This document shows, in pieces, positions 22,397 through 32,078 of a stretch of 43,856 nt of DNA. This DNA is from Bacteroidota bacterium (GTDB taxonomy: Bacteria > Bacteroidota > Bacteroidia > Bacteroidales > B39-G9). Numbering within the stretch: the first letter of the stretch is position 1; each line of letters begins with the position of its first letter. Location of the stretch: the NCBI GenBank assembly GCA_015222055.1, contig JADFUR010000053.1, positions 1 through 43,856 on the forward strand, in the 5' to 3' direction. Below the pieces are notes generated by a model. The model was given only the letters and a program-made list of their open reading frames with translations. It had not been told where the DNA came from and did no database searches. Made by a program: the position numbers and the translations under genes.

Positions 22397-22432
22397 AAGA
22401 AAAAGCTGCTAACATGTAGCTTTTTCTTTTTT
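22397..22432 (+). terminator. Rho-independent terminator after threonine aldolase
   Basis: 11-bp arms, AAGAAAAAGCT (22397-22407) and AGCTTTTTCTT (22418-22428), around a 10-nt loop, running into a T stretch. It separates ltaE from the pruA promoter. Confidence 0.8.
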
Positions 22433-22495: not shown

Positions 22496-22526
22496 TTTGC
22501 TGAATTTTAAAATAATATTAATTTTG
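22496..22526 (+). promoter_or_regulatory. Near-perfect Bacteroidetes promoter for the pruA-ALDH-hydA operon
   Basis: TTTG at 22496-22499, a 19-bp spacer, then TAATTTTG at 22519-22526. Both elements match the -33 TTTG and -7 TAnnTTTG consensus exactly. The leader to the pruA ATG would be about 45-50 bases. Confidence 0.75.
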
Positions 22527-22578: not shown

Positions 22579-24204
22579 ATGAATAATCTAATCTATAAGC
22601 TAAGGAAACCGGAAAATGAAACTGTTATATCTTTTGATAAAAACACAGAAGAACGCAGACTATTGTTAGAAGAAATACAAAGGCAAAGCAATACTATTAT
22701 TGATATTCCATTAATAATAGGAGGAAAGGAAATAAAAACAGGAGATATAGGAAATGTTGTAATGCCACACAATCATTCTCATGTATTAGCCACTTACCAC
22801 AAAGCTTCTGAAAAAGAAATAAAACTAGCTATAAATGCAGCAAAAGAAGCAAAAAAAGAATGGATGTCACTTTCTTGGATGGATAGAATCTCAGTTATGT
22901 TAAAGGCTGCAGAATTAATTACAAGCAAATACAGATATCTTTTAGATGCTTCAACTATGCTTGGTCAATCAAAAAACCCATATCAGGCTGAAATTGATGC
23001 TGTTTGTGAGACAGCAGATTTCTTAAGATTTAACTCATATTTTCTTTCACAAGTATATAACGATCAACCATTTTCATCTGAAAATCAATTAAATTACACT
23101 GAATACAGACCTCTTGAAGGATTTGTTTTTGCAGTAACACCTTTTAACTTCACATCAATTGCTTCAAATTTAAACATGGCAGTTGCATTAATGGGCAACA
23201 CATTAGTGTGGAAACCATCAACTACGTCACTTTTATCAAATTACTACCTAATGAAAATTTTTAAAGAGGCTGGATTACCTGATGGGGTAATAAATTTTGT
23301 TCCAGGAAAAGGTTCTATCATTGGAGAAATAGTATTGTCCGATAAAGATTTGGGAGGCATTCACTTTACTGGTTCAACAAAAACGTTCAACTCCTTACAG
23401 AAACAGGTTAGCAATAATTTAGAAACATATAAATCATATCCAAAAATAATTGGAGAAACCGGAGGCAAAAATTTCATTTTTGTTCACGAAACAGCAGAGT
23501 CTAAAGAAGTTTCAACAGCAATAATTAGAGGAGCTTTTGAATTTCAAGGACAAAAATGTTCTGCTGCTTCAAGAGCTTATATTCCAAAAACATTGTGGCC
23601 TAAAATAAAAGAACTCTTAATAGAATCTATTAGTAAAATAAAACTTGGAGATATTAATGATTTCAGCAACTTTATGAATGCCGTAATAGATAAAACTTCA
23701 TTTGACAATATTATGTCACATATCAACTATGCAAAAGAATCCAAAGAAGCGGAAGTTATTATTGGTGGCAAAGGAGACAAATCAAAGGGCTATTACATTG
23801 AACCAACGGTTATATTAACAAGTAATCCTCATTTCAAAACAATGGAAGAGGAAATATTCGGTCCTGTAATTACAATATATATATATAATAACTCCGATTA
23901 CGAAGAGACATTAAAAATTTGCGATACCACCTCTAAATATGCACTAACCGGATCAATCTTTTCAAAAAATAAAGAAGCAATAAAAAAAGCTTATGAAATA
24001 TTACGCTATGCAGCTGGCAATTTTTACATTAATGATAAACCAACTGGTGCCGTAGTAGGTCAACAACCATTTGGAGGAGCCCGCTCATCAGGAACAAATG
24101 ACAAAGCTGGGAGTTATATAAATCTTTTAAGATGGACAAGCCCAAGAGTTGTAAAAGAGACTTTTGTCCCAGCAACTTGCTTCAAATATAAATACATGGA
24201 ATAA
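22579..24204 (+). CDS. pruA: L-glutamate gamma-semialdehyde (1-pyrroline-5-carboxylate) dehydrogenase
   Basis: Oxidises glutamate semialdehyde to glutamate with NAD+, the last step of proline breakdown. The long N-terminal part (KLRKPENETVISFDKNTEER, IPLIIGGKEIKTGD) and the 541-residue length fit the stand-alone mitochondrial-type enzyme rather than bacterial PutA. The Rossmann region shows FAVTPFNFTSIASNLNMAVA and HFTGSTKTFNSL. The general base is E293 in KIIGETGGKNF and the nucleophile C327 in FQGQKCSAASRAYI. The end PTGAVVGQQPFGGARSSGTN is characteristic. It opens a tight plus-strand run: the next dehydrogenase starts 18 bp after its stop. No proline dehydrogenase gene is seen in the window. 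Confidence 0.92.
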   Translation: MNNLIYKLRKPENETVISFDKNTEERRLLLEEIQRQSNTIIDIPLIIGGKEIKTGDIGNVVMPHNHSHVLATYHKASEKEIKLAINAAKEAKKEWMSLSWMDRISVMLKAAELITSKYRYLLDASTMLGQSKNPYQAEIDAVCETADFLRFNSYFLSQVYNDQPFSSENQLNYTEYRPLEGFVFAVTPFNFTSIASNLNMAVALMGNTLVWKPSTTSLLSNYYLMKIFKEAGLPDGVINFVPGKGSIIGEIVLSDKDLGGIHFTGSTKTFNSLQKQVSNNLETYKSYPKIIGETGGKNFIFVHETAESKEVSTAIIRGAFEFQGQKCSAASRAYIPKTLWPKIKELLIESISKIKLGDINDFSNFMNAVIDKTSFDNIMSHINYAKESKEAEVIIGGKGDKSKGYYIEPTVILTSNPHFKTMEEEIFGPVITIYIYNNSDYEETLKICDTTSKYALTGSIFSKNKEAIKKAYEILRYAAGNFYINDKPTGAVVGQQPFGGARSSGTNDKAGSYINLLRWTSPRVVKETFVPATCFKYKYME

Positions 24205-24222
24205 TAATTAAAACTTAAAAAA

Positions 24223-25776
24223 ATGACACAAGAACAAATCCTTAATATAAAAAAGACACTGAAAGAACTTGGAATATCAGAAATTAACAATGGTGTTTGC
24301 ACAGGAACTGAGTGGATTGAAACAGATGGTGAAATTGTAGATTCCATCTCACCAATTTCTGGAGAGCCAATTGCGAAAATAAAACAAGGCACTTGGGAAA
24401 ACTACGAAACTGTAATGAGTAAAGCTCAAGAAGCATTCAAAACATGGAGAATGGTACCTGCACCAAAAAGAGGAGATATAGTTCGTCAAATAGGAATGAA
24501 ATTAAGAGAAAAAAAAGAAGCTCTTGGAATGTTGGTAACTCTTGAAGTTGGCAAGATATATCAAGAAGGACTGGGTGAAGTACAAGAAATGATTGATGTT
24601 TCTGATTATTCATTAGGTCTTTCACGTCAATTGTGGGGTTACACAATGCATTCAGAAAGGCCAAACCACAGGATGTATGACCAATACCACCCACTTGGTG
24701 TTATCGGAATTATTTCTGCTTTTAATTTCCCCGTTGCAGTTTGGGCTTGGAATGCAATGGTTGCATTAACTTGTGGAAATGTTGTTATATGGAAACCTTC
24801 ATCAAAAAGTTTTTTAAGTGCAATAGCAGTACATAATATTATTTCGGATGTTCTTAAACAAAACGAGGTACCCGAAGGCGTTGTAAATTTAATCGCATCA
24901 AGTTCTAAATATATCGGAGATGATTTTCTGGCAGATAATCGTTTACCATTAATTTCTTGTACCGGATCAACAAAAGTTGGAAAAAAAGTAGGTCGAATTG
25001 TAGGCGAAAGACTCGGGAAAAGCATTCTTGAACTTGGAGGAAACAATGCCATCATTATTACAGCCGATGCAGATATCAAAATGGCATTAAGTGCTACTTT
25101 ATTTGGTGCCGTTGGCACATGTGGACAACGATGTACTTCAACACGCCGATTAATAATACACGAATCTATTTATGAAAATTTTAAAAACAAATTAATACAA
25201 GCCTACAAACAAATACGAATAGGCAATCCTTTGGATCCTGAAACCCTTGTTGGACCAATGATTGACGGGGGAGCCGTGTCTATGTTTTTAGATGCAGTTG
25301 AAGCTGTTAAAAAAGAAGGCGGTAAAATTTTATATGGCGGTAAAAAAATTCAAAATCAAGATTGCAAATCCACTAATTATGTTATACCTTGCATCGCTGA
25401 AATAAAAAATAATTTTGAGATTGTACAAAACGAAACCTTTGCACCATTGCTGTATTTGATGAAATATAACACAATAGAAGAAGCTATTGCAATACATAAT
25501 AATGTAAAACAAGGCTTGTCCTCATCTATTTTTTCAACAAATATTTATGAAACTGAGAGATTTTTGTCTCACGAAGGTTCTGATTGTGGAATTGCGAATG
25601 TTAATATTGGTACTTCAGGAGCAGAAATAGGTGGAGCTTTTGGAGGCGAAAAAGATACTGGCGGTGGTCGAGAATCTGGTTCTGATGCTTGGAAAGCATA
25701 TATGAGAAGACAAACCAATACAATTAATTATAGCAAAGAATTGCCATTTGCACAGGGCATAAAATTTATTTTATAA
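24223..25776 (+). CDS. ALDH7-family aldehyde dehydrogenase (alpha-aminoadipic semialdehyde/piperideine-6-carboxylate type)
   Basis: NAD-dependent aldehyde dehydrogenase of the antiquitin group, known for oxidising alpha-aminoadipic semialdehyde in lysine degradation. NAD-site motifs include GVIGIISAFNFPVAVWAWNA, WKPSSKSFLSA and SCTGSTKVGKKVG. The general base is E270 in ILELGGNNAIII, and the nucleophile C304 in GTCGQRCTSTRRLI, both in the form typical of ALDH7. The late GAFGGEKDTGGGRESGSDAW is also characteristic. The length of 517 residues is normal. It lies 18 bp after pruA and 20 bp before hydA, so all three are probably cotranscribed. Substrate assignment rests on family only. Confidence 0.9.
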   Translation: MTQEQILNIKKTLKELGISEINNGVCTGTEWIETDGEIVDSISPISGEPIAKIKQGTWENYETVMSKAQEAFKTWRMVPAPKRGDIVRQIGMKLREKKEALGMLVTLEVGKIYQEGLGEVQEMIDVSDYSLGLSRQLWGYTMHSERPNHRMYDQYHPLGVIGIISAFNFPVAVWAWNAMVALTCGNVVIWKPSSKSFLSAIAVHNIISDVLKQNEVPEGVVNLIASSSKYIGDDFLADNRLPLISCTGSTKVGKKVGRIVGERLGKSILELGGNNAIIITADADIKMALSATLFGAVGTCGQRCTSTRRLIIHESIYENFKNKLIQAYKQIRIGNPLDPETLVGPMIDGGAVSMFLDAVEAVKKEGGKILYGGKKIQNQDCKSTNYVIPCIAEIKNNFEIVQNETFAPLLYLMKYNTIEEAIAIHNNVKQGLSSSIFSTNIYETERFLSHEGSDCGIANVNIGTSGAEIGGAFGGEKDTGGGRESGSDAWKAYMRRQTNTINYSKELPFAQGIKFIL

Positions 25777-25796
25777 TTTTTTTAACATTATTTATA

Positions 25797-27515
25797 ATGA
25801 TTACATTAACAATTAACGGAGAAAAAGTAACAGTTCCTAAAGGGACTAAAATAATTGATGCTGCAAAAAAAATAAATATTAACATTCCTCATCTTTGTCA
25901 TTTTGAAGGACTAGAGCCTATTGGCGTTTGCCGATTATGTGTAGTAGAGGTTAAAGGTAGCAAAAAACTTATGCCTTCTTGTATGCATGAAGTAAAAGAA
26001 GGTATGGAAATACAAACAAATACGCATAAATTAAGGGAAACAAGAAAAATGCTCCTAGAGTTAATTCTCTCAAAACACCCTGCGGATTGTCATACTTGCG
26101 AAAGAAATCAAAATTGTGAGTTGCTAAAATTAGCTAATGAATTTGGTGTAAAAACAAGCACATTCAATCATGATGATACTATACAAGAAATTGACGATTC
26201 TAGTTTGTCTGTTGTAAGAGATCCAAATAAATGTATTTTGTGTGGCAGGTGTATTAGAGTATGTAAAGATATTCAAGGTGTGGGTGCGATAGATCTTGCT
26301 TTTAGAGGCTATGATACTGTTGTTACAACATTTATGAATAGAGGACTTGGAGATTCACCATGTGTAAATTGCGGACAATGTATCGCAGTTTGTCCGGTTG
26401 GAGCTTTAAGAGAACAAAACTCAATTAAAGATGTTTGGGCTGCTATTGACAATCCAAAAAAACATGTTGTTGTACAAGAAGCACCTGCTATTAGAACTGC
26501 ACTTGGTGAAGAATTTGGTATTCCTGCAGGAACTCTTGTCGCTGGCAAAATGTACGCTGCATTAAAAAAAATTGGTTTTGACAAAATTTTTGATACCAAC
26601 TTTAGTGCCGACCTTACAATTATTGAAGAAGGAAATGAACTTGTAAATAGAATTACAGGAAAAATTGACATGCCTCTACCACAAATAACATCATGTTGCC
26701 CTGCTTGGATAAAATATATGGAAGAATTTTATCCTGACACAATGGAAAACGTGTCAACATGTAAATCTCCACAACAAATGTTTGGTGCATTAGTAAAAAC
26801 ATATTATGCAGAAGCTTCAGGTGTAGATCCTAAAGACATTGTTTCAGTCTCAATTATGCCATGTACTGCGAAAAAATATGAGTGCAAAAGACCCGAAATG
26901 AATGATAGTGGTTATACTGATGTTGATTATGTATTAACAACAAGAGAATTAGCCCGTATGATTAGAGAAGCTGATATTGATTTTGCTTCTTTACCTAAAG
27001 ACGTACCCGCAGATTCATTGATGGGAACATATTCGGGAGCAGGCACTCTGTTTGGGGCAACTGGCGGTGTTATGGAAGCTGCGTTACGTTCTGCTTATAA
27101 AATCATTACAGATAAAGAGATGGAAAACATTGATATTTTACCTGTAAGAGGATTAAAAGGAATTAAAACAGCTACAGTAAAAATTAATGACATGGATGTA
27201 AAGGTTGCTGTTGCTCATGGCTTAGACAATGCTAAAGTACTTTTAGATGAAATACGAGAAGGTAAATCGCCTTACCATTTTATTGAAATTATGGCTTGTC
27301 CAGGAGGATGTGTCGGTGGTGGTGGTCAGCCATTTGGCACTAATAATTTCCTCCGAGAAACACGTAGTAACGTTTTATATAAAGAAGATAAAGATCTTCC
27401 TATTAGAAAATCGCACGAAAACCCAGCTATAAAAAAAGTTTATGAAAACTATTTAGGCGATCCTTTAGGAAAAAAATCACATAAATTGTTACATACAAAA
27501 TATAAAAAAAGATAA
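25797..27515 (+). CDS. hydA: [FeFe] hydrogenase catalytic subunit, HydA/HndD type
   Basis: Catalyses H2 formation or uptake. Domains in order: a [2Fe-2S] ferredoxin domain (C34, C45, C48, C62); a His-Cys ligated [4Fe-4S] site (H94, C98, C101, C107 in HPADCHTCERNQNC); a 2[4Fe-4S] domain (CILCGRCIRVC and CVNCGQCIAVC); and the H-cluster domain with L1 TSCCPAW (about residue 298), L2 MPCTAKKYEC (about 355) and L3 EIMACPGGCVGGGGQP (about 496-511). The small-subunit-like tail RKSHENPAIKKVYENYLG follows. The 572-residue layout matches subunits that in other bacteria pair with NuoE- and NuoF-like HydC and HydB. Those partners are absent here. It is probably cytoplasmic. A terminator follows. Confidence 0.95.
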   Translation: MITLTINGEKVTVPKGTKIIDAAKKININIPHLCHFEGLEPIGVCRLCVVEVKGSKKLMPSCMHEVKEGMEIQTNTHKLRETRKMLLELILSKHPADCHTCERNQNCELLKLANEFGVKTSTFNHDDTIQEIDDSSLSVVRDPNKCILCGRCIRVCKDIQGVGAIDLAFRGYDTVVTTFMNRGLGDSPCVNCGQCIAVCPVGALREQNSIKDVWAAIDNPKKHVVVQEAPAIRTALGEEFGIPAGTLVAGKMYAALKKIGFDKIFDTNFSADLTIIEEGNELVNRITGKIDMPLPQITSCCPAWIKYMEEFYPDTMENVSTCKSPQQMFGALVKTYYAEASGVDPKDIVSVSIMPCTAKKYECKRPEMNDSGYTDVDYVLTTRELARMIREADIDFASLPKDVPADSLMGTYSGAGTLFGATGGVMEAALRSAYKIITDKEMENIDILPVRGLKGIKTATVKINDMDVKVAVAHGLDNAKVLLDEIREGKSPYHFIEIMACPGGCVGGGGQPFGTNNFLRETRSNVLYKEDKDLPIRKSHENPAIKKVYENYLGDPLGKKSHKLLHTKYKKR

Positions 27516-27523
27516 AACTAAAT

Positions 27524-27560
27524 TTAAAAAGAGGGGTAATTTATTTATTCCTCTTTTTAA
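27524..27560 (+). terminator. Hairpin terminator after hydA
   Basis: Arms at 27524-27534 (TTAAAAAGAGG) and 27550-27560 (CCTCTTTTTAA) form an 11-bp perfect stem, extended inward by weaker pairs. The T run lies within the 3' arm. Confidence 0.65.
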
Positions 27561-27633: not shown

Positions 27634-27894
27634 ATGGAAAAGAGAATAGGAGCTATTTTAATAATAGTTGAAAATAAAGAACATATACCTGAGCTTAATA
27701 ATATCCTTAATAAGCATAATAATATTATTATAGGTAGACAAGGCATTCCTTTAAAAGACAAAGGTATCTGCATAATTTCTGTTGTTTTTGAAGCAAATAT
27801 TAATGAAGCGAACTCTCTAACCGGTCAAATTGGAAGATTAAAAGGGATTTTAGTAAAATCATTATTAACAAAAATAAAAAATTATGTGTGCTAA
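27634..27894 (+). CDS. TM1266-type iron-only hydrogenase system regulator
   Basis: Small ACT-like/NikR C-terminal-like protein found beside [FeFe] hydrogenase maturase genes and annotated as putative regulator. The sequence matches the family throughout: EKRIGAILIIVENKEHIPEL, then IIIGRQGIPLKDKGICIISV, then LTGQIGRLKGILVKSLLTK. The length of 86 residues is typical. It has no separate DNA-binding domain, so regulation would need a partner or a small ligand. Its 3' end overlaps the hydG start by 11 bp, which indicates translational coupling. Confidence 0.88.
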   Translation: MEKRIGAILIIVENKEHIPELNNILNKHNNIIIGRQGIPLKDKGICIISVVFEANINEANSLTGQIGRLKGILVKSLLTKIKNYVC

Positions 27895-29416
27895 AAAAAT
27901 TATGAACCCTGACGAATGGGTTAAACAGGTTGTTAAGCAAGAAGAAATTGATAAATATCTTATAGATGGAAAAGATTTTATTGATGAAGAACTAATTAAT
28001 AAACAGCTTTCTGAAAATAAGGATCCTGACAAGCAAAAAATTCGTGATATACTTCAAAAATCTCTTAACATAGAAAGACTTGAACCTGAAGAAACTGCTG
28101 CATTATTAAATGTTACAGATCCCAAAATGTGGGAAGAAATGTTTGAAATGGCTCTTAAAGTTAAAAGAAAAGTTTACGATAACAGAATAGTTTTCTTTGC
28201 TCCTTTATACTGTGCTAACCTTTGCGTTAACAGCTGTAAATATTGCGGTTTCAGAAAAGAAAACAAAGAAGAAAAAAGAAGAATCCTTACTATGGATGAA
28301 ATCCGTGAGGAAACCAAAGCTGTTGTTGCTGAAGGTCATAAAAGAATGATTGCTGTTTATGGTGAACATCCTTCTACTGCTGTAGATTATATATGCGATT
28401 CTATTAAAGCTATTTATAGCGTTAAAGAAAAATCGAAAGACGGAACTGTTTCTGGTGAAATTAGAAGAGTAAATATTAACGCTGCTCCTATGAGTATTGC
28501 CGATTTAAAAAAATTAAATGCAGCTGGTATTGGTACTTATCAAGTATTTCAAGAAACTTATCATAAAGAAACTTATAAAAAAGTTCACCCAGCTGGTGTA
28601 AAAGCTAATTATCGTTGGAGACTTTATGCTTTGCACAGAGCTATGGAAGCTGGTGTTGATGATGTTGCTACTGGCGTTTTATTTGGTCTCGCTAATTGGC
28701 GATTCGAAGTTATGGGTCTTTTATATCATGCTATAGATCTTGAAAGACAATTTGGAGTAGGACCTCACACTATTTCATTCCCTAGAATGACTCCTGCTAT
28801 TGGTTCTGATTTAAGTAAAGAATCTAAATTTTTAGTTAGTGACGAAAATACAAAAAAACTTGCTGCTATTTTAAGATTATCTGTCCCTTATACCGGCATA
28901 ATTATTACAGCAAGAGAAGAACCTGAAATAAAAAAAGAAATTATTAAAGTGGGTTGTACTCAAACCGATGCTTCATCAAGAATTGGTATAGGTGCTTATA
29001 CCGAAGCTCTTAAAAAACTTGCTGAACATCAAGGCGATCAAACTGATTGTAAACAACAATTTACACTTGGTGATACCAGAAGTTTAGATGCTGTTATTAG
29101 AGAAATGGCTGAAATGGGTATGATTACTTCTTTCTGCACTGCTGGTTACAGATGCGGTAGAACTGGTGACAAAATTATGGGCTTATTAAAAAGCTGTACT
29201 GAAGGTAAATTCTGCAAACTTAATGCTGTTCTTACTTTTAGAGAATATCTTGAAGATTATGCTTCTGCTGAAACTAAAGCTGTTGGTGAAAAAGTTCTAG
29301 CTAAAGAACTTAAAGAAATAGAAGCTATGGAATTCTATAAAAAAGGAAATTTGTTAGAAAAATTTAAAGAAAATTATAATAGAATTTGCAATGGTGAAAG
29401 AGACATCTTTATATAA
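27884..29416 (+). CDS. hydG: [FeFe] hydrogenase maturase HydG (radical SAM tyrosine lyase)
   Basis: Cleaves tyrosine to supply the CO and CN ligands of the H-cluster. The radical SAM motif CVNSCKYC (C114, C118, C121, CX3CX2C) is intact. RMIAVYGEHPS, VNINAAPMSIADLKKLNAAG, YQVFQETYHKETYKKVHP and GVLFGLANWRFEVMGLLYH are typical of HydG. The C-terminal auxiliary-cluster region is unusual. HydG normally has CX2CX22C, whereas here C418 and C444 are kept, position 421 is Gly, and Cys appears at 424 (CTAGYRCGRTG), with another at 438. Nearly all Ala codons are GCT, unlike hydA, which suggests strong expression or a different history. It overlaps the upstream regulator and the downstream gene. Confidence 0.94.
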   Translation: MCAKKIMNPDEWVKQVVKQEEIDKYLIDGKDFIDEELINKQLSENKDPDKQKIRDILQKSLNIERLEPEETAALLNVTDPKMWEEMFEMALKVKRKVYDNRIVFFAPLYCANLCVNSCKYCGFRKENKEEKRRILTMDEIREETKAVVAEGHKRMIAVYGEHPSTAVDYICDSIKAIYSVKEKSKDGTVSGEIRRVNINAAPMSIADLKKLNAAGIGTYQVFQETYHKETYKKVHPAGVKANYRWRLYALHRAMEAGVDDVATGVLFGLANWRFEVMGLLYHAIDLERQFGVGPHTISFPRMTPAIGSDLSKESKFLVSDENTKKLAAILRLSVPYTGIIITAREEPEIKKEIIKVGCTQTDASSRIGIGAYTEALKKLAEHQGDQTDCKQQFTLGDTRSLDAVIREMAEMGMITSFCTAGYRCGRTGDKIMGLLKSCTEGKFCKLNAVLTFREYLEDYASAETKAVGEKVLAKELKEIEAMEFYKKGNLLEKFKENYNRICNGERDIFI

Positions 29417-29690
29417 CGATTTAAAAAAAATTGTTGATTCTGGCACAGACTTAAAAGATGAATTAAATGCTATTACTGAATATATTTATAAGAAGTATAA
29501 TTTAAGATCGTATTTCTGTAAAATATTTGCATCACGTTGGTCATTTTTTGCTGGAGATAACGACATCTATTTATCTGTAAAACGTTTTAAAATTTCCAAT
29601 GAATTTGGTTTGATAATTGAAGATAAAAATGTGGAAAATGAAAAAGTAGAAATTTTAATTAAAAATTTAAAATTATTACTTAAAAATTAA
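29391..29690 (+). CDS. Unknown 99-residue protein between hydG and hydF
   Basis: I do not recognise this protein. It starts inside hydG (26-bp overlap) in another frame and ends just before a strong terminator, so it is likely made from the hydG transcript by coupled translation. It is predicted soluble: an N-terminal helical part (LYNDLKKIVDSGTDLKDELN), a central YNLRSYFCKIFASRWSFFAG with one Cys and several aromatic residues, and a C-terminal part of alternating charged and hydrophobic residues (VENEKVEILIKNLKLLLKN). Context suggests a role in hydrogenase assembly or control, but that is inference. A GTG at 29394 is an alternative start. Confidence 0.7.
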   Translation: MVKETSLYNDLKKIVDSGTDLKDELNAITEYIYKKYNLRSYFCKIFASRWSFFAGDNDIYLSVKRFKISNEFGLIIEDKNVENEKVEILIKNLKLLLKN

Positions 29691-29697
29691 TTCTTTT

Positions 29698-29748
29698 CCG
29701 TAAAGTTTTATTCTAATAAAGAATAAAACTTTACGGTTATTTTTTTTT
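29698..29748 (+). terminator. Strong Rho-independent terminator before hydF
   Basis: A perfect 17-bp stem (29698-29714 with 29720-29736; arm begins CCGTAAAGTTTTATTCT) with a 5-nt loop and a following run of nine or more T. It splits the maturase cluster into two transcription units or causes partial readthrough. Confidence 0.9.
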
Positions 29749-29776
29749 GTTATTATAAAATCCAATACATAATAAT

Positions 29777-30979
29777 ATGTCAAAAGGAAAAGATCAAAAG
29801 CCTCATATTGGAATTTTCGGTAGAAAAAATAACGGTAAAAGTTCATTCATTAATACTATTACTAATCAAGATGTTGCTATCGTTTCCAATAAAGCGGGCA
29901 CAACAACAGATCCTGTAAAAAAATCTATCGAAATTTTTGGTGTTGGACCTGCAATAATTATAGACACCGCCGGAATTGATGATAAAGGAGAATTGGGAAA
30001 CAAAAGAGTTGAAAAAACTCAACAAGTAATTAAAATTATTGACTTAGCAATTTTGATTATTTCAAGGAATAATTTTAATAATTATGAAAAAAAATTAATT
30101 GGAAAATTTAATAACTACTCAATACCTTATTTTATAATACATAATAAGTCGGATATTGAAACAATTAATAAAGAAACAATTAATAAGATAAATGATTATG
30201 AAAAAACTGAAATAATTAATTTTTCAACAATTGAACCTAATAACATTGACGATGTTCTTGAACTAATAAAAAAAACAATTCCTGAAACAGCTTATCAAAA
30301 ATCATCTTTATTAAAAAATCTTATTTCGAAAGATGATATTATTATGCTTGTTACTCCTATTGACAGTGAAACTCCTGAGGGAAGACTAATTCTACCCGAA
30401 GTAATGGCTATTAGAAATATTCTTGACAATAATTGCACTGCTATAGTATTGCAAGATAATGAAATTGAAAATTTTCTTCAAAAAACTAAAATTAAACCCA
30501 ATTTAGTTATTACTGATAGTCAAGTTTTTAACAAAGTAAAAAATCTTATTCCCGAAAACATTCCTCTAACCAGTTTTAGTATTGTCTTGGCTCATTATAA
30601 AGGCGATTTCAAAAATTACCTTAAAGGAACACCAAAATTATCTGATTTAAAAGATGGAGATAGAGTTTTAATTTTCGAATCTTGTACTCATCAGGTTAAC
30701 TGTGAAGATATTGGAAGAATAAAAATCCCTAATTGGATTAAAAAATTTACTGGCAAAGAGCTTAGTTTTGAAGTAGTTACAGGTCTTAATAAATTACCAA
30801 GAGATATTAAAGAATATGCAATTGTGATACAATGTGGAGGATGTGTTCTTACACGCAAACAGATTATTAACAGATTAAAACCTGCTGTAGATGCCGAAAT
30901 ACCTGTTTCAAACTACGGAATGACAATCTCATACGTAAATGGAATATACAAACGAGTAATTGCTCCTTTTATTAAATAA
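29777..30979 (+). CDS. hydF: [FeFe] hydrogenase maturation GTPase HydF
   Basis: Scaffold that assembles the 2Fe subcluster and hands it to HydA. The GTPase domain begins HIGIFGRKNNGKSSFIN (P-loop 15-22), then AGTTTDPVKKSIEI, IIDTAGIDDKGELG and IIHNKSDIE. The middle dimerisation region has MLVTPIDSETPEGRLILPE. The C-terminal Fe-S domain carries CTH at residues 303-305 and CGGC at 353-356, matching the family's C-x-H...CxxC cluster site. The length of 400 residues is normal. It sits only 28 bp after a strong terminator; no clear TAnnTTTG promoter is visible in that gap, so its transcription is uncertain. Confidence 0.94.
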   Translation: MSKGKDQKPHIGIFGRKNNGKSSFINTITNQDVAIVSNKAGTTTDPVKKSIEIFGVGPAIIIDTAGIDDKGELGNKRVEKTQQVIKIIDLAILIISRNNFNNYEKKLIGKFNNYSIPYFIIHNKSDIETINKETINKINDYEKTEIINFSTIEPNNIDDVLELIKKTIPETAYQKSSLLKNLISKDDIIMLVTPIDSETPEGRLILPEVMAIRNILDNNCTAIVLQDNEIENFLQKTKIKPNLVITDSQVFNKVKNLIPENIPLTSFSIVLAHYKGDFKNYLKGTPKLSDLKDGDRVLIFESCTHQVNCEDIGRIKIPNWIKKFTGKELSFEVVTGLNKLPRDIKEYAIVIQCGGCVLTRKQIINRLKPAVDAEIPVSNYGMTISYVNGIYKRVIAPFIK

Positions 30980-30986
30980 AGAATTG

Positions 30987-32078
30987 ATGGAAAATAACAT
31001 TGATAAAATTTTATCAAAAAAAATATTTGACAAAAAAAATATTATAACTCTTTTGTCGATAACAAATGACGAGGATAAAAAAAAATTATTTGATAAGGCA
31101 TATAATATTAAAAAAAAGCATGTAGGTAATTATGTTCATCTTAGAGGGCTATTAGAATTTTCTAACATTTGCACAAAAAATTGTAAGTATTGTGGTATCA
31201 GATCTGATAATAAAAAAGCTTACAGATATGATATTCCTGATGATGAAATAAAAAAATGTGTATTACACGCATGGGAAAATGGATATGGGTCAATGGTTTT
31301 TCAATCTGGTGAAAGAAAAGACAAAAACTTTATTGAACACCTTAATGACATATTAATCTACTCAAAAAAAATCACAAATAATGAAATAGGAATAACACTA
31401 TCGTGTGGAGAACAAAGTGCTGAAACATATAAAAAATGGTTCGAATTAGGTGCACACAGATATCTATTACGCATAGAAACTACTAACGAAGATTTGTATT
31501 ATAAAATACATCCAAAAGATAAAAATCATAGTTTTCAGGAAAGAATACAAGCTTTAAAAGACTTAAAAAATACCGGATATCAAACAGGAACAGGCGTGAT
31601 GATAGGATTACCTTTTCAAACTATTGAAGACCTTGCCGACGATTTAATTTTTTTTAAAGATATTGATATAGATATGGTTGGTATGGGTCCCTATATTGAA
31701 CATAAAGACACCCCCCTATACAATTATAAAGATATGCTTATGCCACAAATAGAACGGTTTAATCTTACAATTAAAATGATTGCCATTTTAAGAATTATGA
31801 TGAAAGACATTAATATTGCCTCATCTACGGCTTTGCAAGCTATTGTGAAAAATGGAAGAATGCAGGGTTTAAAAGCAGGTACAAATGTTATTATGCCTAA
31901 TCTTACTCCTACTAAATATATCGAAAATTATTTCTTATATGAAAATAAACCTTGTTTAAAAGAATATTCTAAAGAATACTTTAAACTTTTAGAAAAAAAT
32001 ATTATTGAGGCAGGCGATACTATTCAATATTACAAATGGGGAGATCCAATACATTATTTTAAAAGAAATTCTATATAA
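30987..32078 (+). CDS. hydE: [FeFe] hydrogenase maturase HydE (radical SAM)
   Basis: Radical SAM enzyme needed to build the H-cluster bridging dithiolate. The cluster motif is C62-C66-C69 in FSNICTKNCKYCGIR. Later motifs include ENGYGSMVFQSGERKD, IGITLSCGEQSAETYKKWFE, YLLRIETTNEDLYYKIHPKD and TGTGVMIGLPFQTIEDLADD, all typical of HydE. The ATG at 30987 gives 363 residues and lies 7 bp after the hydF stop. The frame extends to a TTG at 30960, inside hydF, which is unlikely to be the start. It is probably cotranscribed with hydF. Confidence 0.93.
   Translation: MENNIDKILSKKIFDKKNIITLLSITNDEDKKKLFDKAYNIKKKHVGNYVHLRGLLEFSNICTKNCKYCGIRSDNKKAYRYDIPDDEIKKCVLHAWENGYGSMVFQSGERKDKNFIEHLNDILIYSKKITNNEIGITLSCGEQSAETYKKWFELGAHRYLLRIETTNEDLYYKIHPKDKNHSFQERIQALKDLKNTGYQTGTGVMIGLPFQTIEDLADDLIFFKDIDIDMVGMGPYIEHKDTPLYNYKDMLMPQIERFNLTIKMIAILRIMMKDINIASSTALQAIVKNGRMQGLKAGTNVIMPNLTPTKYIENYFLYENKPCLKEYSKEYFKLLEKNIIEAGDTIQYYKWGDPIHYFKRNSI

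Follow-up and report, generated by a model that had tools for sequence, protein, structure and literature searches.

Syntrophomonas wolfei Hyd1ABC and Syntrophus aciditrophicus HydAB are non-bifurcating NADH-dependent hydrogenases, and in hydrogenases of this kind the flavin is carried by the beta subunit (PMC7311640). Here they are compared with a locus in a 43,856-nucleotide stretch of DNA (the window; contig JADFUR010000053.1, assembly GCA_015222055.1) from a Bacteroidota bacterium of the order Bacteroidales, in which hydA, for the catalytic subunit of a group A6 [FeFe] hydrogenase, follows pruA and ALDH7, for two semialdehyde dehydrogenases. Window HydA resembles these enzymes in exceeding the cut-off of the A6 HydA model, a likeness drawn through the model and not by direct sequence comparison, and its closest relatives carry a short NuoF-like HydB; by contrast, the window lacks HydB and HydC and has two aldehyde dehydrogenase genes in their place. 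The pairing of an A6-type enzyme with a different NADH-reading partner has a precedent: long hydrogenases of eukaryotes that carry a CysJ domain share a clade with group A6 (PMC10579272). Among solved structures, the best sequence matches of window HydA are the full-length HydA1 chains of 7q4v (633.5 bits) and 8a6t (625.3 bits); the monomeric ferredoxin hydrogenase CpI (1c4a and others) also matches over its full length, at a lower 521.6 bits for 1c4a. The 8a6t structure is named electron bifurcating, and 7q4v we take to be a HydABC complex; the partner subunits of these complexes are absent beside the window gene.

The explanation that we favour, with a probability of about 0.5 for the whole of it, is that a transferred A6 HydA without partners stands behind pruA-ALDH7 and vents reductant. 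An A6-lineage hydA and a foreign-type hydG would have entered the Bacteroidota lineage from unrelated anaerobes, and hydA, having lost or arrived without hydC-hydB, would now be the last gene of a pruA-ALDH7 operon. PruA would oxidise glutamate semialdehyde (from ornithine) and ALDH7 aminoadipate semialdehyde (from lysine via saccharopine), each making NADH, while HydA, with all of its Fe-S domains kept, would evolve H2. Ferredoxin, supplied by Rnf among other routes, would be the most likely source of its electrons, and HydB and HydC borrowed from a second hydrogenase encoded on another contig (C14) a less likely one; co-transcription would raise the capacity for H2 formation during amino-acid degradation. 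If so, a subunit of a multimeric NADH-type hydrogenase has been reused in connection with amino-acid catabolism and without the partners that read NADH, which bears on electron disposal by amino-acid-fermenting anaerobes. If the coupling is false, the locus would still be a clear case of foreign-type hydA and hydG inside a Bacteroidota maturase cluster.

The pruA-ALDH7-hydA unit

The unit and its boundaries comprise the following features.

22397-22428, + strand: terminator-like hairpin closing an upstream aldolase-like gene (-16.9 kcal/mol, z -5.7, T tail)
22496-22526, + strand: promoter-like site TTTG-N19-TAATTTTG, an exact match to the Bacteroidota-type consensus
22579-24204, + strand: pruA, 541 aa, L-glutamate gamma-semialdehyde (P5C) dehydrogenase (TIGR01236, 774.9 bits, cut-off 613.6)
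24223-25776, + strand: ALDH7, 517 aa, alpha-aminoadipic semialdehyde / piperidine-6-carboxylate dehydrogenase (NF050084, 780.7 bits, cut-off 730)
25797-27515, + strand: hydA, 572 aa, group A6 [FeFe] hydrogenase catalytic subunit (NF040763, 890.4 bits, cut-off 765)
27524-27560, + strand: terminator-like hairpin 3' of hydA (-17.1 kcal/mol, z -5.8, T run within the 3' arm)

The list of open reading frames (ORFs) and a reading of the junctions place the three genes on a common strand, with 18 bp between pruA and ALDH7 and 20 bp between ALDH7 and hydA. The coordinates, strand and spacing given in a preliminary description of this DNA therefore stand, as do its assignment of two NAD-type semialdehyde dehydrogenases (both cut-offs exceeded) and its placing of HydA in an NADH-linked lineage (the A6 model is that of curated NADH-dependent enzymes). 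The three genes would be co-transcribed as one operon. A single promoter upstream of pruA, also claimed there, is plausible and is suggested by the exact match to TTTG-N19-TAATTTTG, which we take to be a Bacteroidota-type promoter consensus and which occurs three times in the window against a shuffle mean of 0.93 (9 of 100 shuffles reach three), but a second promoter-like site, matching at 9/10 positions, lies at 25388 within ALDH7. Folds as stable as the two bounding hairpins occurred in 0/200 shuffles of each, and neither hairpin was among the matches of a generic terminator scan; an Rfam search of the window returned 0 families.

Related loci are arranged otherwise. HydB was sought within 4 kb of hydA in 80 loci kept from 514, five of which were too short, and was found in 72 of the 75 informative ones, upstream in 67 (47 within 100 bp) and downstream in 5; the three hydA genes with no HydB nearby are those of L024, L035 and L044. 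The genes hydC, hydB and hydA stand together in 20/20 same-order loci (taken from the best-scoring of 232 genomes with a match) and in all three same-family genomes with this type (G003-G005). In the closest relatives, a short NuoF-like hydB (411-424 codons) and hydC lie directly 5' of hydA (L018-L021 and L023; a long HydB lies downstream in L022), and it is this place that pruA-ALDH7 occupy in the window. Neither pruA nor ALDH7 was found near hydA in any of the 80 loci, and no hydrogenase or maturase match accompanied ALDH7 in 20 same-order stretches, which lends no support to a conserved coupling of amino-acid oxidation and hydrogenase. Among the loci compared, the pruA-ALDH7-hydA order was met in one genome only. 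Literature searches met nothing on a hydrogenase in an operon with an aldehyde dehydrogenase or on this arrangement, which does not show its absence from print.

HydA itself is intact. Its Pfam domains ([2Fe-2S], NuoG-type [4Fe-4S], 2x[4Fe-4S], H-cluster and small-subunit) make up the full-length group A set, with no flavin or NAD domain among them, and the H-cluster motifs are intact (TSCCPAW at 298, MPCTAKK at 354, MACPGGC at 499). In the three Fe-S domains 48/48 conserved positions are retained, where the printed rows with HydB nearby depart at 0 to 3 of them, while 5/116 positions are changed in the H-cluster domain; a relaxed constraint on the electron-input domains was rejected on this ground (0/48 altered). 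Such conservation would fit either ferredoxin use or a HydB acting in trans. The TSCCPAW form (residues 298-304; window 26688-26708) is shared by 3/114 aligned rows, with TSCSPGW in 103/114 and TSCCPGW in L021-L023, members of the clade of window HydA; among solved HydA1 chains, the first H-cluster motif has the Ser form in 7q4v and the Cys form in 8a6t.

Origin of hydA and the maturase cluster

The closest HydA relatives in genome contigs, in a search that may omit records very near the window's own genome, share 65-68% identity with it across most of its length and belong, by record name, to Chloroflexota and to Deltaproteobacteria, Thermoplasmata and Methanophagales metagenome-assembled genomes (MAGs). 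The best-scoring same-order matches (392 other genomes) reach 57%, against 67-68% for L018 and L019. Both in a quick 114-row tree and in a more careful one, for which 49 of the 114 rows were picked by hand, window HydA falls among rows of other phyla and groups with those of Chloroflexota, Deltaproteobacteria and Thermoplasmata MAGs. These trees omit L024, whose frame stops 138 codons after the match start. In the 49-row tree, a clade of window HydA with 14 same-order rows (3 of them same-family) was rejected by the approximately unbiased (AU) test (p-AU 4.6e-72). Judged from its sequence, hydA is of a foreign type in a Bacteroidota lineage, and the transfer route given above is one that we infer. 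At 18.2%, the third-position G+C content (GC3) of hydA falls inside the range of 17 window genes (15.5-21.8%), compared with 40-63% in the seven nearest relatives; the gene therefore fits its host, unlike a piece of another genome.

Downstream of hydA lies a cluster of maturation genes, unmentioned in the preliminary description.

27634-27894, + strand: tm1266-family putative regulator (TIGR03959, 86.1 bits, cut-off 60.8)
27884-29416, + strand: hydG maturase, foreign type (TIGR03955, 456.3, cut-off 312.15)
29777-30979, + strand: hydF maturase, native type (TIGR03918, 483.7, cut-off 325.55)
30960-32078, + strand: hydE maturase, native type (TIGR03956, 330.6, cut-off 254.6)

The cluster (27634-32078) appears to be a mosaic. 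HydG is 61-62% identical to L019 and L028 and 46-49% to three same-order genomes, whereas HydF and HydE are closest to same-order L226 (57% and 55%, none of the others compared exceeding 42%), and the nearest tm1266 is that of the same-family genome G003 (57%). The trees comprised 21 rows for HydG and 16 each for HydF and HydE, with 3, 1 and 1 members of the order. Transfer of hydA-hydG-hydF-hydE as a whole block was rejected, since two of the four genes, hydF and hydE, look native. Between hydG and hydF there is an ORF of 99 aa (29391-29690) without a Pfam match, followed by a strong hairpin (29698-29736).

Electron partners and substrates

The genome is a draft of 118 contigs with a completeness of 98.56%, the window's contig being C20, and the absence of HydB and HydC reported for the window is borne out, with no PF01512 or PF01257 match on C20. 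The proposed genome search for hydB and hydC did find HydB-like genes elsewhere, all within other gene sets. PF01512 matches occur in four places: hydB on C14, HydB-like genes on C86 and C98 beside FdhA-like genes, and rnfC on C40 within an rnf cluster (the FdhA and Rnf assignments are read from the sequence, without a family search). A complete hydC-hydB-hydA set is present on C14 (L099:7169-11351), with a long HydB of 649 aa, and no free short HydB is among the four matches. Of seven PF01257 matches, three are HydC-like genes (of the C14, C86 and C98 sets) and two fall within the HydB genes of C98 and C86; the other two are a 104-aa protein close to one end of C115 and an 86-aa frame on C11. 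Because of the completeness of 98.56%, the absence of a free HydB partner for window HydA is rated likely, not certain.

Direct use of NADH by HydA alone is unlikely, since the protein has no flavin or NAD domain, the flavin of such enzymes sits in the beta subunit, no flavin subunit is present here and the HydB-like proteins elsewhere belong to other gene sets. Reductant would probably reach HydA by way of ferredoxin or borrowed HydBC and not directly from the dehydrogenases. The electron carrier and the physiological link are what we infer; the possible link between amino-acid breakdown and H2 release is a hypothesis.

PF02906 finds six [FeFe] hydrogenase-like genes in this genome. HydA of C14 is 42% identical to window HydA and reads TSNCPAW in the first H-cluster motif, as does the same-genus row L107, compared with TSCSPGW in most rows; downstream of the C14 set is a gene with a Put_DNA-bind_N and CoA_binding layout, which we take to be Rex-like. 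The further [FeFe] hydrogenase-like genes on C11 (L101) and C98 (L100) comprise a group B1 enzyme (516.5, cut-off 450) and others that may serve in sensing, since their neighbours, judged by reading only, resemble signalling proteins of the phosphatase type. On C86 (L098:10585-14274), an apparent fusion of 1229 aa, with a NuoG-like N-terminus followed by GltD-like and FdhA-like parts, lies behind the HydC- and HydB-like genes.

Both dehydrogenases produce NADH, and their solved matches agree with the assignments: P5C dehydrogenase 4idm is the best for PruA, and 10fm (aldehyde dehydrogenase) and 4x0t (alpha-aminoadipic semialdehyde dehydrogenase) match ALDH7. Proline, one of the two substrates put forward earlier, loses ground here, as proline dehydrogenase (PF01619) has 0 matches in the genome in a search that was positive in 8/14 control genomes. 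An ornithine aminotransferase is encoded (TIGR01885, 673.8, cut-off 378.4), so that with PruA both steps of the route from ornithine to glutamate are present. For lysine, a saccharopine-dehydrogenase-like gene on C18 (Sacchrp_dh_C and NADP Pfam domains) is 34% identical to a gene near ALDH7 in the same-order stretch L183, and an AlaDh_PNT-type gene on C115, resembling lysine-ketoglutarate reductase (LKR), is 44% identical to its counterpart adjoining ALDH7 there; neither has an NCBIfam match at E <= 1e-30. Ornithine and lysine are likelier candidate substrates than proline, because no proline dehydrogenase was found while an ornithine aminotransferase and saccharopine-type genes are present.

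Of the 392 other genomes in the order, 95 have an ALDH7 match (E <= 1e-170), and none was found in 0/5 family relatives (E <= 1e-120; genomes 66-96% complete). In 20 stretches of 7-12 kb from 20 of the 95 genomes, mostly the best-scoring, pruA is present in five, and in two (L180 and L192) it directly precedes ALDH7 in the same orientation, as in the window but with no hydrogenase or maturase match nearby. Genes resembling LKR and saccharopine dehydrogenase (SDH) read as adjacent to or near ALDH7 in L176, L183, L187 and L189, with Pfam confirmation in L183 only. Two of the stretches (L180:2179-3499 and L182:6764-8137) also carry near ALDH7 a small HTH_1-type regulator (above the Pfam cut-off in L180, below it in L182) and an SBP_bac_11 binding protein, presumably of the molybdate/tungstate type; similar pairs are seen, by look only, in L175, L178 and L186.

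Competing explanations

Several points weigh against a transferred, partnerless HydA that vents reductant. The site at 25388 could drive a separate hydA transcript, the operon is known from a single genome and adjacency alone is weak functional evidence, and the choice of rows for the AU test was made with the larger tree already known. HydA falls short of the ferredoxin hydrogenase model NF040762 (668.1, cut-off 900), which does not exclude ferredoxin as its donor. A hydBC pair may be unassembled in the draft genome, and the fully kept Fe-S-domain positions could equally mean that HydB still docks. This last point also favours an enzyme that works with C14 HydB and HydC in trans and so keeps its link to NADH, perhaps by confurcation with ferredoxin: the complete C14 set could supply these subunits, and the TSNCPAW motif of its own HydA, departing from the usual TSCSPGW, may indicate a weak catalytic subunit. 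However, that HydA is just 42% identical to window HydA, and its HydB is long where 5/6 clade members with HydB nearby have the short form, and we consider such borrowing unlikely.

Equally doubtful is a chance neighbourhood, in which hydA, once transferred, came to lie next to maturase genes and behind a pruA-ALDH7 operon unrelated to it, with no metabolic link. In its favour, the arrangement recurs in none of the 80 HydA and 20 ALDH7 loci, adjacency to hydG, hydF and hydE would account for the position of hydA, and the internal promoter-like site is in keeping with it; the 20 bp gap, the same strand and the hairpins enclosing the three genes as one unit speak against it. Compared with the favoured venting of reductant, it is a much bolder proposal that HydA exchanged HydB and HydC for a semialdehyde oxidation module, wiring lysine and ornithine breakdown to H2 within the operon through a shared or new carrier, and we regard this as very improbable. 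Least credible is a faulty join of hydA to pruA-ALDH7 during assembly. In its favour, the arrangement occurs once and in a draft genome, and the same-genus genomes G001 and G002 (66% and 88% complete) have no matches to this hydA type, ALDH7, hydG or pruA; yet the uniform GC3 across the contig disfavours contamination with foreign DNA but is no argument against misjoined parts of this genome, and the junction separates two intact ORFs by 20 bp, with the foreign-type hydG on the hydA side.

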